Positions 7,932-41,146 of a DNA stretch of 52,808 bases are shown piece after piece. The notes beneath the pieces were generated by a model, which saw only the letters and a program-made list of their open reading frames with translations, searched no databases and was not told the origin of the DNA. Both the position numbers and the translations under genes were made by a program. The DNA is from Candidatus Omnitrophota bacterium (GTDB lineage Bacteria > Omnitrophota > Gorgyraeia > JAHJTE01). Position 1 is the stretch's first letter. Every line of letters starts with the position of its first letter. The stretch is from the NCBI GenBank assembly GCA_020058285.1, contig JAGVEL010000039.1:1-52808 (forward strand). Reading direction: 5' to 3'.

Positions 7932-8960
7932 ATGCCTCAATTAAGAAAAGATCCGATTATCGGAAGATGGGTAATAATTGCAACAGAGCGGGCTAAGCGG
8001 CCTGATGATTTCAAAAAGATTGCCGAACCGCCGCCGCCTGAGGGCAAGGAATGTCCGTTTTGCGAAGGCAAGGAGCATCTTACCCCGCCTGAAATATTCA
8101 GTTTCCGGTCTCCGAAAAGCGCAGCAAATACTCCGGGTTGGCAATTACGAGTTGTTTCGAGCATTGCTCCGGTATTACATATTGAAGGAGATTTGGATAG
8201 GCACGGCCAGGGTGTTTACGATGTAATGAATGGTATAGGTGCACATGAAATTGTGATTGAAAGCCCCAAGCATATTGCTAACATGTCTGACCTTAGTGTT
8301 GAAGATATAAGCCGTACGATTTCTTGTTACATTCAGAGGATTAATGACCTAGGCCAGGACCCGCGATTTAAATATGTATTGATATTCAAAAATTATGGAT
8401 GGGTTGCTGGCGGCGGACACGTCCGACATACCCGTTCGCAGTTAATCGCGACTCCGGTAACGCCGAAGCGGGTTAAGGAAAAGTTAGTCGGAGCACATAA
8501 ATATTTTGAATACCATGAGCGTTGTGTTTTTTGCGATTTAATAAAACAGGAATTGAACGATAAACAAAGAATAATCGCCGAGATTGATGGCTTTATTGCT
8601 ATGACTCCTTTTGCTTCACGCTTTCCTTTTGAAGTTGTAATATACCCTAAAAAACACGCTTGTGATTTTACAACTTTAGAAATGCCCCTGAGAAATGATT
8701 TAGCTAATATTATGAAAATTGTATTAACTAAGTTAAAAGTTTGTTTGAATGACCCGCCATATAACTATTTAGTTCATACCGCGCCATTTCGTCGGCCCAA
8801 ACCAGGGTATTGGCGGACAATTGATCAGGATTTTCATTGGCATATTGAAATAACTCCGCGTTTAACCAGAGTAGCCGGTTTTGAGTGGGGAACAGGATTT
8901 TATATCTGTCCTGTGCAACCAGAAGAGGCAGCAAAATTTTTGAGAGAAACTAACGTTTAG
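7932..8960 (+). CDS. GalT-family nucleotidyltransferase paralogue lacking the nucleophilic His
   Basis: This 342-residue protein is a full-length member of the galactose-1-phosphate uridylyltransferase branch of the HIT superfamily and a clear paralogue of the next gene. The zinc-site elements CPFC, the ESPKH histidine and HERCVFC are kept, and the C-terminus has FHWHIEI and RVAGFEWGTGFYICP. The active-site HxHxQ motif reads HTRSQ at residues 166-170: the first His (zinc ligand in E. coli GalT) stays, but the second, which forms the uridylyl-His intermediate, is Arg168 (CGT at 8433-8435, one transition from CAT). The usual Glu before it is also Arg. It is probably unable to do the ping-pong reaction. 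A regulatory, heteromeric or changed-chemistry role is inference. Confidence 0.85.
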   Translation: MPQLRKDPIIGRWVIIATERAKRPDDFKKIAEPPPPEGKECPFCEGKEHLTPPEIFSFRSPKSAANTPGWQLRVVSSIAPVLHIEGDLDRHGQGVYDVMNGIGAHEIVIESPKHIANMSDLSVEDISRTISCYIQRINDLGQDPRFKYVLIFKNYGWVAGGGHVRHTRSQLIATPVTPKRVKEKLVGAHKYFEYHERCVFCDLIKQELNDKQRIIAEIDGFIAMTPFASRFPFEVVIYPKKHACDFTTLEMPLRNDLANIMKIVLTKLKVCLNDPPYNYLVHTAPFRRPKPGYWRTIDQDFHWHIEITPRLTRVAGFEWGTGFYICPVQPEEAAKFLRETNV

Positions 8961-8986: not shown

Positions 8987-9987
8987 ATGGGACAATTGCG
9001 TAGAGATCCGATAGTTGGCCGCTGGGTAATTGTAAATGTTGAAAAACCAAAATTGCCAGAACAATTTGAGGTTACTAAGCATGAGTTTACTCAAAAGGCA
9101 AATTGCGCATTTTGCTATGGCCATGAAAACATGACTCCTCCGGAGATAGATGCGGTTAGGCCGCCAGATACCTTACCCAATACTCCGGGATGGGCTGTTC
9201 GCGTTGTTCCGAATAAATTTCCGGCATTGAGGATTGAAGGTGAGCTTAATCCCGAAGGGATTGGTATCTATGACATGCTAAACGGCATAGGTGCTCATGA
9301 GGTTCTCATTGAAAGCCCGGAGCATGAAAAAAACTTAGCTGATCTAGAGGTAGGCCAGATTAGGGATTTTATTGATATGGCTTGCCGCAGGGCGATTTCA
9401 TTAACCGGAGATAAACGTTTTAAATATATCTTGCTTTTTAAGAACTACGGAGTGGATGCAGGCGCATCCTTAGAGCACGGCCATGGACAGATGATTGCCT
9501 TGCCGATGATCCCTAAAAATGCCTACGAGGAATTAGAAGGAGCGTACCGTTATTTTGAATACCATGAGCGCTGCATTTTTTGTGATATCATTCGGCAAGA
9601 AAAACAAGAGAAACTGCGTATTGTTTGTGAAAATGAATTATTTGTGGCATTTTGCCCTTTTGCTTCGCGTTTTCCGTTTCAAGTTTGGCTTATCTCAAAG
9701 CAGCATTCTCCATATTTTTGCCATATGAGCGCTCAGGAGAAAAATAAGCTTTCTGAGATTTTAAAATGTTCTTTGCTAAAAATAAAAAAAGTTTTACGTG
9801 ATCCGAGTTATAATTTTATTCTTCATACTTCGCCTTTGGATATTAAACAGGCTGAAGGTTTTCATTGGTATGTAGAGATAATGCCCAAGCTTACGCGCGT
9901 AGCTGGTTTTGAATGGGGAAGTGGATTCTATATTGTCCCGACTCCACCAGAGGTGGCGGCTAAATTTTTAAGAGAAGCTGAAATTTA

Positions 9988-9988
<1 letters not shown>
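8987..9988 (+). CDS. galT: Galactose-1-phosphate uridylyltransferase-family protein (intact HxHxQ)
   Basis: This is a 333-residue GalT-family enzyme. It carries CAFC, the ESPEH histidine, the full active site EHGHGQ with nucleophile His166 (codon 9482-9484) and Gln168, and HERCIFC. It would move UMP between UDP-glucose and hexose-1-phosphate (Leloir pathway). The related plant/archaeal ADP-glucose phosphorylase branch is an alternative, since no galE or galK is nearby. It lies 26 bases after the paralogue with matching ends (EVAAKFLREAEI against EEAAKFLRETNV), so this is a tandem duplication. It is followed immediately by a structured repeat that overlaps its stop codon. Confidence 0.88.
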
Positions 9989-11244
<1,256 letters not shown>

Positions 11245-20858: not shown

Positions 20859-21314
20859 ATGATTAGAAAAGCCAAAGTAAGAGATGTTTTAACCGTACAG
20901 AGCTTAATAAATCAATATGCCCAGCAGAATCTTATGCTCGGCAGGTCGTTGAGTGAACTTTATGAAAATATCCGGGATTTTTGGGTATTTGTTGATCCGG
21001 AGAATCATAAAGTTGTGGGTTGTTGCGCGTTGCATGTTTGTTGGAAAAAATTAGCTGAGATTAAATCTTTGGCTGTTGCGCCAAAATTTAGCTCAAAAGG
21101 TATAGGTAGCGCACTTGTGCTAAAATCAATGGATGAGGCAAAGAGTCTGGGGATAAAAGACATATTTGTTTTAACCTTTGTCCCAAAATTCTTTAGACGC
21201 TTTGGCTTTAGGCAGATAAACAAGAATAGATTACCGCATAAGATCTGGGTAGAATGCTGCAATTGTCCAAAATTCCCGGATTGTAATGAGATTGCTTTGA
21301 TTAAAAAAATTTAA
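20859..21314 (+). CDS. GNAT acetyltransferase, short N-acetylglutamate synthase-like
   Basis: This 151-residue GNAT begins IRKAKVRDVLTVQSLINQYA and carries MLGRSLSELYENIRDFWVF, VVGCCALHVCWKKLAEIKSLAV, the acetyl-CoA loop SSKGIGSALV, and the C-terminal LPHKIWVECCNCPKFPDCNE. These match the stand-alone short ArgA-type enzymes that make N-acetylglutamate from glutamate and acetyl-CoA. I chose ATG 20859; a TTG 18 bases upstream lies in the -10 box. No other arg genes are in the window. Its stop codon overlaps the next structured repeat. Confidence 0.82.
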   Translation: MIRKAKVRDVLTVQSLINQYAQQNLMLGRSLSELYENIRDFWVFVDPENHKVVGCCALHVCWKKLAEIKSLAVAPKFSSKGIGSALVLKSMDEAKSLGIKDIFVLTFVPKFFRRFGFRQINKNRLPHKIWVECCNCPKFPDCNEIALIKKI

Positions 21315-21477
21315 ATGAGGGCATAACTTAGCGAACGATAAGTGAAGCTAAATTGTTTGCCCGAATTTACCCCACACCCAGTTCCTACTTTTGCGTTTCC
21401 TTGTAGCAGCTGGGTGTGGGGTTCAACTCCGACATACAAGTTATGTCACCTGCGGTTCCGTAACTTGTGTCGTCATT
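21314..21477 (+). repeat. Structured intergenic element, copy 2 (before acyl-CoA dehydrogenase)
   Basis: This is the shortest copy. It starts in the GNAT stop codon with AATGAGGGC, as in copy 1. The left hairpin pairs GGGC (21319-21322) with GCCC (21359-21362) and ATAACTTAGC with GCTAAATTGT-like sequence (one C-A mismatch); its loop is GAACGATAAGTGAA. The central hairpin is a perfect 12-bp stem, CCCCACACCCAG (21370-21381) with CTGGGTGTGGGG (21410-21421), without the AT-rich core of the other copies. The right hairpin pairs ACAAGTTA (21436-21443) with TAACTTGT (21461-21468). It ends GTCATT directly before GAAGGAGG. Junctions GAATTTA and GGTTCAACTC match the other copies. Confidence 0.8.
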
Positions 21478-21485
21478 GAAGGAGG
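21478..21485 (+). promoter_or_regulatory. Ribosome-binding site deciding the acyl-CoA dehydrogenase start
   Basis: GAAGGAGG lies 5 bases before GTG 21491. An in-frame GTG at 21467 is inside the right hairpin of the repeat and has no such site. Confidence 0.82.
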
Positions 21486-21490
21486 ATAAG

Positions 21491-22645
21491 GTGGATTATT
21501 TGTTGACTGAAGAACAAGTTATGATTAGGCAGCTTTGTAACCAGATTGCTCAGGAAAAGATTAAGCCAATAGCTGCTGAGCTTGACGAGACTGAAGAATT
21601 TCCGCATGCGACTATGAAGATTTTGTCCCAATCTGATCTATTTGGGCTCTACATTCCTCAAGAGTACGGCGGCATGGGTGCAGGTGTTTTAGAATTATGT
21701 ATTGCTACCGAAGAGCTTTCTGCTGCCTGTGGTGGGATTGCAGTCTGTTTCGCAGCTAGTGCCTTGGGTACATTTCCGATATTACTCTTTGGGACTGATG
21801 AACAAAAAAAGAAATATCTGCCGGCTTTGGCAAAAGGGGAATACCTGGCAGCATTTGGAATAACTGAACCTAACGCTGGCTCAGATGCTTCAGCGATTGA
21901 AACAACTGCAAAAAAGTCCGGAGATCATTATATTTTAAACGGCCTAAAACATTTTATTACTAACGGCGGTGATGCTCAGGTTTATGTTGTTATAGCAATG
22001 ACTGATAAGACAAAAGGCGCGCGCGGCGCCTCAGCGTTTATTGTTGAAAAAGGAACGCCGGGATTTACCTTTGGGAAAAAAGAAAAGAAAATGGGAATCC
22101 GTGCCTCGTCAACTTGTGAGCTTATATTTACTGATTGTAAAATTCCTAAAGAAAACTTATTAGCTAAAGAAGGAATGGGATTTATAGTTACAATGAGGAC
22201 TTTTGATATGAGCCGTCCGGGTGTTGCAGCTCAAGCCTTAGGCATTGCCCAGGGTGCGCTAAATGAGGCAGTAAGTTATGCAGTAACTCGCCAGCAATTC
22301 GGCAAACCGATTTCCAGTTTTCAAGGCATACAATTTATGCTAGCAGATATGGCAACCCAGGTTGAAGCAGCCAGGGCTCTTGTTTATGCAACAGCAAGAA
22401 TGATTGATAAAGGCGACACTAATTGTGCTAAGGAATCAGCTATGGCAAAATTATTTGCTTCTGATGTGGCAATGTCTGTTAGCACAGATGCAGTGCAGAT
22501 CTTAGGCGGATACGGCTATATGCGCGATTATCCGGTTGAGAAATATATGCGCGATGCCAAGATTACCCAGATTTACGAAGGCACAAATCAGATTCAGCGC
22601 GGAATTATCGCCTTGCAACTGATAAAGCAGGCGAAGAAGAAATAA
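21491..22645 (+). CDS. Acyl-CoA dehydrogenase
   Basis: This 384-residue flavoprotein oxidises acyl-CoA or, in reverse, reduces enoyl-CoA. It has the family segments YIPQEYGGMGAG, AFGITEPNAGSDA, MGIRASSTCELIF, RQQFGKPISSFQ and QILGGYGYMRDYPVEKYMRDAKI. The catalytic glutamate sits in QIYEGTNQIQR, as in short-chain and butyryl-CoA dehydrogenases. It starts at GTG 21491 with a strong ribosome site. The later etfB and ferredoxin-etfA are its likely electron partners. The order (dehydrogenase, EtfB, EtfA with a ferredoxin domain) resembles Acetobacterium CarC-CarD-CarE, an electron-bifurcating enoyl-CoA reductase. Bifurcation here is inference. Confidence 0.94.
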   Translation: MDYLLTEEQVMIRQLCNQIAQEKIKPIAAELDETEEFPHATMKILSQSDLFGLYIPQEYGGMGAGVLELCIATEELSAACGGIAVCFAASALGTFPILLFGTDEQKKKYLPALAKGEYLAAFGITEPNAGSDASAIETTAKKSGDHYILNGLKHFITNGGDAQVYVVIAMTDKTKGARGASAFIVEKGTPGFTFGKKEKKMGIRASSTCELIFTDCKIPKENLLAKEGMGFIVTMRTFDMSRPGVAAQALGIAQGALNEAVSYAVTRQQFGKPISSFQGIQFMLADMATQVEAARALVYATARMIDKGDTNCAKESAMAKLFASDVAMSVSTDAVQILGGYGYMRDYPVEKYMRDAKITQIYEGTNQIQRGIIALQLIKQAKKK

Positions 22646-40611: not shown

Positions 40612-40932
40612 ATGAACAAGAATGTTAAGATTTCCTATGACAAAAAAGGGCTTATTCCAGCGGTTATCCAGGATTATAAGACCAGCGAAGTGTTGATGGT
40701 GGCTTTCATGAATAAGGCGTCATTATCTAAAACTATTAAAGATGGTCTGACTTGTTTTTGGTCGCGTTCAAGGCAGAAGTTTTGGACCAAAGGAGAAACC
40801 TCAGGTCATTTTCAGAAGGTTAAAAATATTTTTTATGATTGTGATAAGGATTGCTTGTTAATAAAGGTAAAACAATTAGGACCAGCTTGTCATACGGGCA
40901 ATAGGAGTTGTTTTTATAGGAAGTTAAAATAA
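40612..40932 (+). CDS. hisI: Phosphoribosyl-AMP cyclohydrolase
   Basis: This 106-residue zinc enzyme opens the adenine ring of [48 protein letters not shown] and [10 protein letters not shown] provide the metal cysteines and substrate motifs. It is the stand-alone cyclohydrolase with no HisE pyrophosphohydrolase domain, so hisE must be elsewhere. It ends the his cluster; its stop abuts the third structured repeat. Confidence 0.97.
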
Positions 40933-41146
40933 GCGAGACCACAACTTACGGAAACGCAAGTGACGTAAGTTGTATGGTCGAACTTACCCAGCACTAATTT
41001 TCGATAACGCATTGTGGTATAATTAGTAAGGTTAATTTTTTAGAAAAATTTAATCTATAAATCCAGACTAATTACAAAAATTAGTGCTGGGTTAAATTCG
41101 CGCAAATAATTTACGTCGTTAACACTCCGTAAATTATGCGCTCATT
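40932..41146 (+). repeat. Structured intergenic element, copy 3 (before trpE)
   Basis: It fills the whole gap between hisI and trpE. The left hairpin pairs GACC (40937-40940) with GGTC (40976-40979) and has a perfect 10-bp stem ACAACTTACG (40941-40950) with CGTAAGTTGT (40964-40973), loop GAAACGCAAGTGA. The central hairpin is bounded by CCAGCACTAATTTT (40988-41001) and its complement (41077-41090). The right hairpin pairs GCGCA (41100-41104) with TGCGC (41137-41141) and TAATTTACG (41107-41115) with CGTAAATTA (41128-41136). It ends CTCATT two bases before the trpE ATG. Junctions are GAACTTA and GGTTAAATTC. Compared with copy 1 the arm stems change on both strands together. Confidence 0.8.
40988..41090. 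repeat. Inverted-repeat-bounded core of element copy 3 (reversed)
   Basis: The same 14-bp inverted repeats as in copy 1 flank a core of about 75 bases. Read on the - strand from 41075 it begins GTAATTAGTCTGGATTTATA and follows the core of copy 1 with about four of five bases equal by eye, plus small indels. Thus this core lies in the opposite orientation. Confidence 0.78.

Follow-up and report, generated by a model that had tools for sequence, protein, structure and literature searches.

A candidate REPIN-like DNA repeat with inverted hairpin arms at stop-to-Shine-Dalgarno junctions of Omnitrophota genomes

The stretch of Candidatus Omnitrophota DNA analysed here (52,808 nucleotides, hereafter the window) carries copies 1, 2 and 3 of an intergenic structured element which is dispersed in this genome in 35 pairs of inverted arms, has defined boundaries and a fixed polarity, and is placed in the gap from a stop codon to the Shine-Dalgarno sequence of the following gene. 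Probably it is a phylum-wide, non-autonomous, REPIN-like DNA repeat, in which inverted arms of about 60 nt surround a palindromic core. This reading is drawn from the inverted pairs, the sharp ends, the inverted arm motif, the low G-U content, the flips of the core loop, a tandem duplication, the polarity and the stop codon of an rpsB-tsf junction, while the lack of a clean empty site in a same-genus trio, of a mobiliser and of recent movement speaks against it.

Organization of the Element in the Window

Copy 2 is 163 bp long (21314–21476), is laid out as arm, core hairpin and arm, and folds far better than its shuffles (z −6.6, 0 of 200); the structured element that the first-pass annotation had reported from position 21314 is indeed present. 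Its left (L-type) arm (21314–21369; AATGAGGGCATAACTTAGCGAACGATAAGTGAAGCTAAATTGTTTGCCCGAATTTA) is a hairpin module on the minus strand with the foot GGGC/GCCC, and its first A is the last base of the TAA stop codon (21312–21314) of the upstream gene, an N-acetyltransferase (NF005840; 20841–21314, plus strand). The core (21370–21421, without strand), of the type designated ACACCC, is a perfect 12-bp inverted repeat formed by CCCCACACCCAG (21370–21381) and CTGGGTGTGGGG (21410–21421); the annotated 12-bp central hairpin is correct as to the stem, but the additional 28-nt loop pairs further. The right (R-type) arm (21422–21476; TTCAACTCCGACATACAAGTTATGTCACCTGCGGTTCCGTAACTTGTGTCGTCATT) carries the module on the plus strand, and its TCATT end abuts the Shine-Dalgarno sequence GAAGGAGG. 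The mechanical open reading frame of the downstream gene, of the acyl-CoA dehydrogenase family (21467–22645, plus strand), begins within the element, while the likely start of this gene is the GTG at 21491.

Copy 1 (9988–10207, plus strand) separates the second galT paralogue from gap and has a core of the type AGCACTAATTTT with an AT-rich loop, and copy 3 (40932–41146, plus strand), located between hisI and trpE, has the core type of copy 1, but its core loop is turned round with respect to the arms. The core sequence of both copies (CCAGCACTAATTTT...) differs from that of copy 2. The galT-like paralogues upstream of copy 1 are arranged in tandem (7932–8960 and 8987–9988); the first ends with TAG and the second at the same residue with a TAA made together with the element, which indicates that the gene upstream of copy 1 is not truncated.

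The Arm Module

Each arm is an imperfect hairpin module of about 60 nt, and the two modules are paired in inverted orientation. When both arms of copy 2 were read as modules they were identical at 42 of 60 positions (z 6.9, 0 of 500 shuffles); the corresponding identity in copy 3 was 42 of 56 (z 6.9), copy 1 showed a lower likeness (z 3.6), and in most copies the left and right arms of one element are alike well beyond dinucleotide shuffles. Together with about 80 arms in the genome and with matches throughout the phylum, this arm-to-arm identity bears out the earlier proposal that both arms represent one hairpin module in inverted orientation. That proposal had started from the loop of the right arm of copy 2, read on the minus strand (CGGAACCGCAGGTGAC, 21445–21460), which does resemble the left-arm loop of copy 3 (CGGAAACGCAAGTGAC, 40949–40964) at 14 of 16 positions (2 mismatches); the latter is the sole other near match (3 mismatches or fewer) in the window, where 0.11 matches are expected by chance.

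Read 5' to 3' in the outward direction, the module is roughly GGGTWARTTCG-NNC-bulge-AACTTAYGTCRC-loop-GTTCCRTAAGTTRT-GNNC-TCATT, with stems of 4 and 10 bp, with (A)ATTC preceding the foot in the arm alignment and with a CGTC-like motif situated internally beside the loop. Both arms conserve the asymmetric motif TTAYGTCRC...GTTCCRTAA, the two occurrences being inverted relative to each other, which would be expected of a signal in DNA and not of one RNA strand.

Alignment of 23 arms of this genome gave 98.4% of paired cells and 74 double-change cells against 20.9 in shuffles, so the arms can be aligned beyond chance, the failure of which the first-pass annotation had named as the result that would speak against it. 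In 135 arms from named contigs 98.2% of the cells were paired with 361 double-change cells, although this alignment was fitted to the covariance model and leans towards it; in slid controls of the arm alignments pairing fell to about 25–46%. The G-U pairs made up only 1.0% of paired cells in the 135 arms (18 of 1817), versus 4.6% in 58 tRNAs of the examined loci (Fisher p 5e-10). A G-T pair on one DNA strand corresponds to A-C on the complementary strand. The scarcity of G-U pairs combined with covariation fits palindromes that are held at the DNA level or repaired by template switching, a process that makes the arms of inverted repeats alike and turns round the intervening spacer (PMC8604942); template switching itself may account for part of the G-U scarcity.

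Some arms contain or adjoin further repeats: the palindrome CCTGCCTGCCGGCAGGCAGG or its relative is found within the arm loops of several copies of this genome (L249:1819, L247:1629, and L254:3276), as if one repeat had been inserted into another, and the repeat CTTCGACTCCGCTCAGG adjoins the inner side of an arm at L265:1709.

Census and Distribution

The copies were counted with an arm covariance model at E ≤ 0.1, in which only the best candidates were scored, so that all counts are lower bounds. The 1.24-Mb genome contains at least 80 arms, and a finer rescan of its stretches resolved at least 35 inverted pairs and 13 unpaired arms. In all 35 pairs the 3' end of the module points outward and the arm-to-arm gap is 25–105 bp, with one of 257; tail-to-tail pairs were not seen in this genome. 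As to single arm modules, raised by the first-pass annotation as a check, a minority of 13 of 83 arms lack a scored partner. Among those read by eye, several come with a lone core hairpin or with a partner that is truncated, damaged or unusual, and L256 looks like a genuine solitary arm.

The arm model matches at least 41 of 59 class relatives and at least 90 of 145 Omnitrophota genomes from more than one class, with 1 to about 90 arms per genome. When 84,980 species genomes were scanned for an exact pattern, at least 80 contigs matched; among the 80 listed, 73 are named Omnitrophota or Omnitrophica and 7 are named "bacterium," "uncultured bacterium," or Planctomycetales (one bin, two contigs), and the arm pattern had no match in viral contigs. 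No description of the repeat was found in the open-access literature searched.

Cores

The core stems of this genome are of at least six types (AGCACTWATTTT, ACACCCAG, TCACCTTTT, CGCCCTTTT, CACCACTTTT, and TTGACATTT), several of which recur in other families; 25 of the 26 occurrences of the AGCACTWATTTT half-site are located where the core adjoins an arm. The core type of copy 2 (CCCCACACCCAG, ACACCC) is common to the copies C40, C20, C66, C51, and C60, while the AGCACT core that copies 1 and 3 carry has its short forms in L252 (31-nt core) and L238 (48-nt core). Copy 2 had been described as a minimal scaffold without the AT-rich core, which is correct only in part. Its core belongs to a different type and is not a stripped AT-rich core; since its type recurs in other copies and the true short forms of AGCACT are found elsewhere, copy 2 represents another core type and not a core-less ancestor. 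The idea that the AT-rich loop was an addition gains no support from these cores, which speak neither for its gain nor for its loss.

The core loop is flipped relative to the arms in copy 3 compared with copies 1 and C51b and in L245 compared with L266, which is what template switching between inverted repeats also does (PMC8604942).

Ends and Dynamics

The element is bounded by AATGA and TCATT, and conservation among copies ends at TCATT-NRA. In the most similar pair of copies the identity of 88% extends over the whole element and stops at AATGA and TCATT, with unrelated flanks; since full-length copies are at most about 88% identical here, recent movement is not shown in this genome. No consistent target-site duplication was found at the ends of copies; duplications of TTAA, TA, or TAA agree with copy 3, C60, and L235 but not with the majority of copies, and were rejected.

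Comparison of the same-genus trio revealed no clean empty site, the element-less site being either a partial deletion or occupied by another repeat: site 1 has a partial deletion, site 2 and the rho-rpmE junction hold other repeats in some species, and site 3 has a tandem duplication. Four states of the element occur in the genus of genome G054: shared, reduced by a partial deletion, supplanted by another repeat family, and duplicated in tandem with its flanks. The tandem duplication of flank, core and arm in G054 resembles the REPIN clusters described as tandem repeats "including the flanking sequences" (PMC3116915).

Three near-identical arm and core units stand in tandem, 80 bp apart, at about L204:1501–1760 (G054:C1:544289–544510). 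Other palindromic repeats are abundant in the G054 genus, for example, CCCCTCGCC...GGCTCGGGG-TTGATTTTGC...GCAAAATCAA-GGAG (L271:4856–4980 and L270:12245–12384, G054), and they also occupy stop-to-Shine-Dalgarno sites, one of them being rho-rpmE, which in other genomes is taken up by the element.

Polarity and Placement between Genes

The feet of stop-side arms mostly end in CC or CT and those of start-side arms in GC. When polarity was classed by the foot alone and copies between codirectional genes were taken as scorable, the element was oriented with transcription in 18 of 19 copies here and 13 of 15 elsewhere (pooled 31:3, p 8e-7). It fills the gap from the stop codon to the Shine-Dalgarno sequence or start codon of the next gene: among the 26 copies that lie no more than 60 nt from a gene end, 19 have the stop codon formed with or inside their first bases, and a Shine-Dalgarno-like sequence follows TCATT after 0–4 nt in 20 of 35 copies, where in a few copies the placement script was off by some bases and the positions were read by eye. 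At the rpsB-tsf junction the stop codon is a TAA made with the element in G054 and a TAG in the relatives G025 and G059. The neighbouring proteins belong to varied housekeeping families. Distant genomes carry elements at several of the same junctions (most clearly at rho-rpmE, in three genomes, and at four others in two each), with differing cores or arms; by a rough estimate this number is near the one that chance reuse of tolerated sites might produce, and it is not taken as proof of function.

The strict polarity and the reused junctions could nevertheless reflect a selected RNA function. In its full form, which we regard as unlikely, this alternative holds that the element acts mainly as RNA in the operon mRNA, where its three hairpins set processing, stability or translational coupling and selection keeps the orientation. 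The 31 of 34 scorable copies lying with transcription, the 20 of 35 copies whose R-arm ends 0–4 nt from a Shine-Dalgarno-like sequence and the same junctions in distant genomes are what it would explain. However, the left arm carries the conserved motif the other way round, which makes the two arms different as RNA; G-U pairs are very few; the L and R end pentamers vary independently, and a closing RNA helix AATGAG/CTCATT was thereby ruled out, since the end variants do not covary; the sequence of the core and the orientation of its loop vary freely; and no T-run follows the hairpins. Nor does the element match an Rfam family: in the window no covariance model of Rfam 15 reached its gathering score, and 11 copies gave only weak hits (E ≤ 1) far below the gathering scores.

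A related arm lies next to the 6S RNA both in a second genome and, at the orthologous position, in this one: arms ending in TCAATAAAA adjoin this gene at L254:3236–3308 (this genome) and L115:1837–1909, where the RF00013 match is in L115 and the sequence of L254 is homologous. Another arm (L247:1589–1669) lies just beside a TPP riboswitch (RF00059, 1699–1808, minus strand).

Search for the Mobilising Enzyme and Comparison with Known Repeats

REPIN-type repeats are usually described together with a RAYT gene. The first-pass annotation asked whether a RAYT-type TnpA gene is present, and none was found: Y1_Tnp (PF01797) gave 0 matches in this genome (assembly 92.8% complete), while the positive controls were detected, and it is also absent from four other arm-bearing genomes (G008, G035, G049, and G056). 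A Y1 (RAYT) protein encoded in the roughly 93% of the genome that is assembled is not the mobilising enzyme. It is doubtful, although somewhat less so than an RNA role, that the element represents a true REPIN whose RAYT mobiliser (Y1 HUH transposase) has been lost or is encoded in the missing part of the assembly. The bulged inverted hairpin pair, the extragenic position, the tandem clusters and the lack of a visible target duplication agree with such an origin, as does the weak association of Y1_Tnp, present in 48 of 59 relatives, with arms (36 of 41 genomes with arms versus 12 of 18 without; Fisher p 0.07). On the other hand, besides the five genomes without Y1_Tnp, no arms were found in six Y1 loci examined, which were rejected as arm carriers, and G025 and G054 together have five Y1 genes, each at least 18 kb from any arm or on an armless contig; no Y1 gene of known position is flanked by arms. 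The GTAG tag or its variant is likewise absent from the 5' foot of the hairpin, which is preceded by (A)ATTC.

The analogy with REP and REPIN sequences drawn earlier holds in that a minority of arms is unpaired, several of those read having damaged or unusual partners, like REP singlets, and breaks down at the Y1/RAYT gene. As in REPINs of Pseudomonas and E. coli (PMC3116915, PMC8266576), two inverted imperfect palindromes form one unit that can fold into a larger hairpin (here 35 outward pairs with homologous arms), and both are extragenic and present in high copy number, with singles that are mostly remnants, with tandem clusters including flanks and with conserved unpaired bases in the stem. 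Unlike them, the element has no GTAG tag, and it has arms of about 60 nt with a 4-bp foot, a separate palindromic core, a fixed polarity relative to transcription, an arm sequence shared by the phylum and no RAYT in the genome; repeats flanking a RAYT gene were not seen where positions are known. Membership of the REPIN/RAYT system fails on the tag and the enzyme, and the working analogy stands.

The CGTC-tagged REPs, which have a terminal CGTC tag, a stem of 8-9 bp and a loop of 4-5 nt (PMC3733652), share with the element the palindromic dimers without a dedicated transposase and a CGTC/TGTC motif in the arm, but in the element this motif is internal, next to the loop of a longer arm, the stems are of 4 and 10 bp and the loop is longer. 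The TIR repeats of TIRtrons/TIRYT are also self-complementary long inverted repeats that form dimers and are not of the GTAG type; they flank a Y1 transposase gene (PMC3733652), and no such gene flanked by arms of the element was found. Integron attC sites, considered as well, were dropped, as the copies do not bracket cassettes.

Less probable still is the descent of the element, as a DDE-type MITE, from a larger transposon with terminal inverted repeats of about 75 bp. The element is short, non-coding and dispersed and has inverted terminal arms, and bacterial intergenic MITEs (PMC10969869, PMC2229807) are similarly short, non-coding, gene-adjacent and bounded by inverted repeats; unlike for these, no target duplication or parent transposon was found for the element. 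No consistent target-site duplication was seen at the copy ends, a Pfam scan of 123 neighbouring proteins showed no transposase among the commonest families, and two widely spaced outward arm pairs, L119 (3.1 kb) and L106 (2.5 kb), were rejected as autonomous elements, since ordinary genes lie inside them, among these a GTP cyclohydrolase-like one. No autonomous element with the same ends was present among the examined loci.

Proposed Mechanism and Significance

For the REPIN-like DNA repeat preferred here, a protein would recognise the asymmetric arm module on DNA, either as a single-stranded hairpin or as a double strand, and the same protein may cut at the TCATT ends. New copies would be placed without an obvious target duplication at sites of the Y-A|R-R type; such sites are probably frequent at the meeting point of stop codon and Shine-Dalgarno sequence, where insertion would be tolerated. 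The pairing of the stems and the flips of the core loop may be upheld by polymerase template switching within palindromes and not mainly by selection at the RNA level. More tentatively, the repeat may be a miniature element that is steered by its own ends, in fixed polarity, to operon stop/Shine-Dalgarno junctions throughout the phylum, is moved by a non-Y1 enzyme and is retained for a long time at some of them (rho-rpmE, 6S RNA) as a working intercistronic spacer.

The Omnitrophota are a largely uncultured phylum with small genomes. In this phylum the element constitutes a REPIN-comparable repeat whose arm sequence is recognisable over more than one class, with up to about 90 arms per genome, and which combines a strict orientation to transcription with no matching enzyme in the examined host. 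It makes testable the question of which agent mobilises such repeats when no RAYT is present, and the question of whether the covariation of intergenic palindromes reflects RNA function or template switching in DNA.
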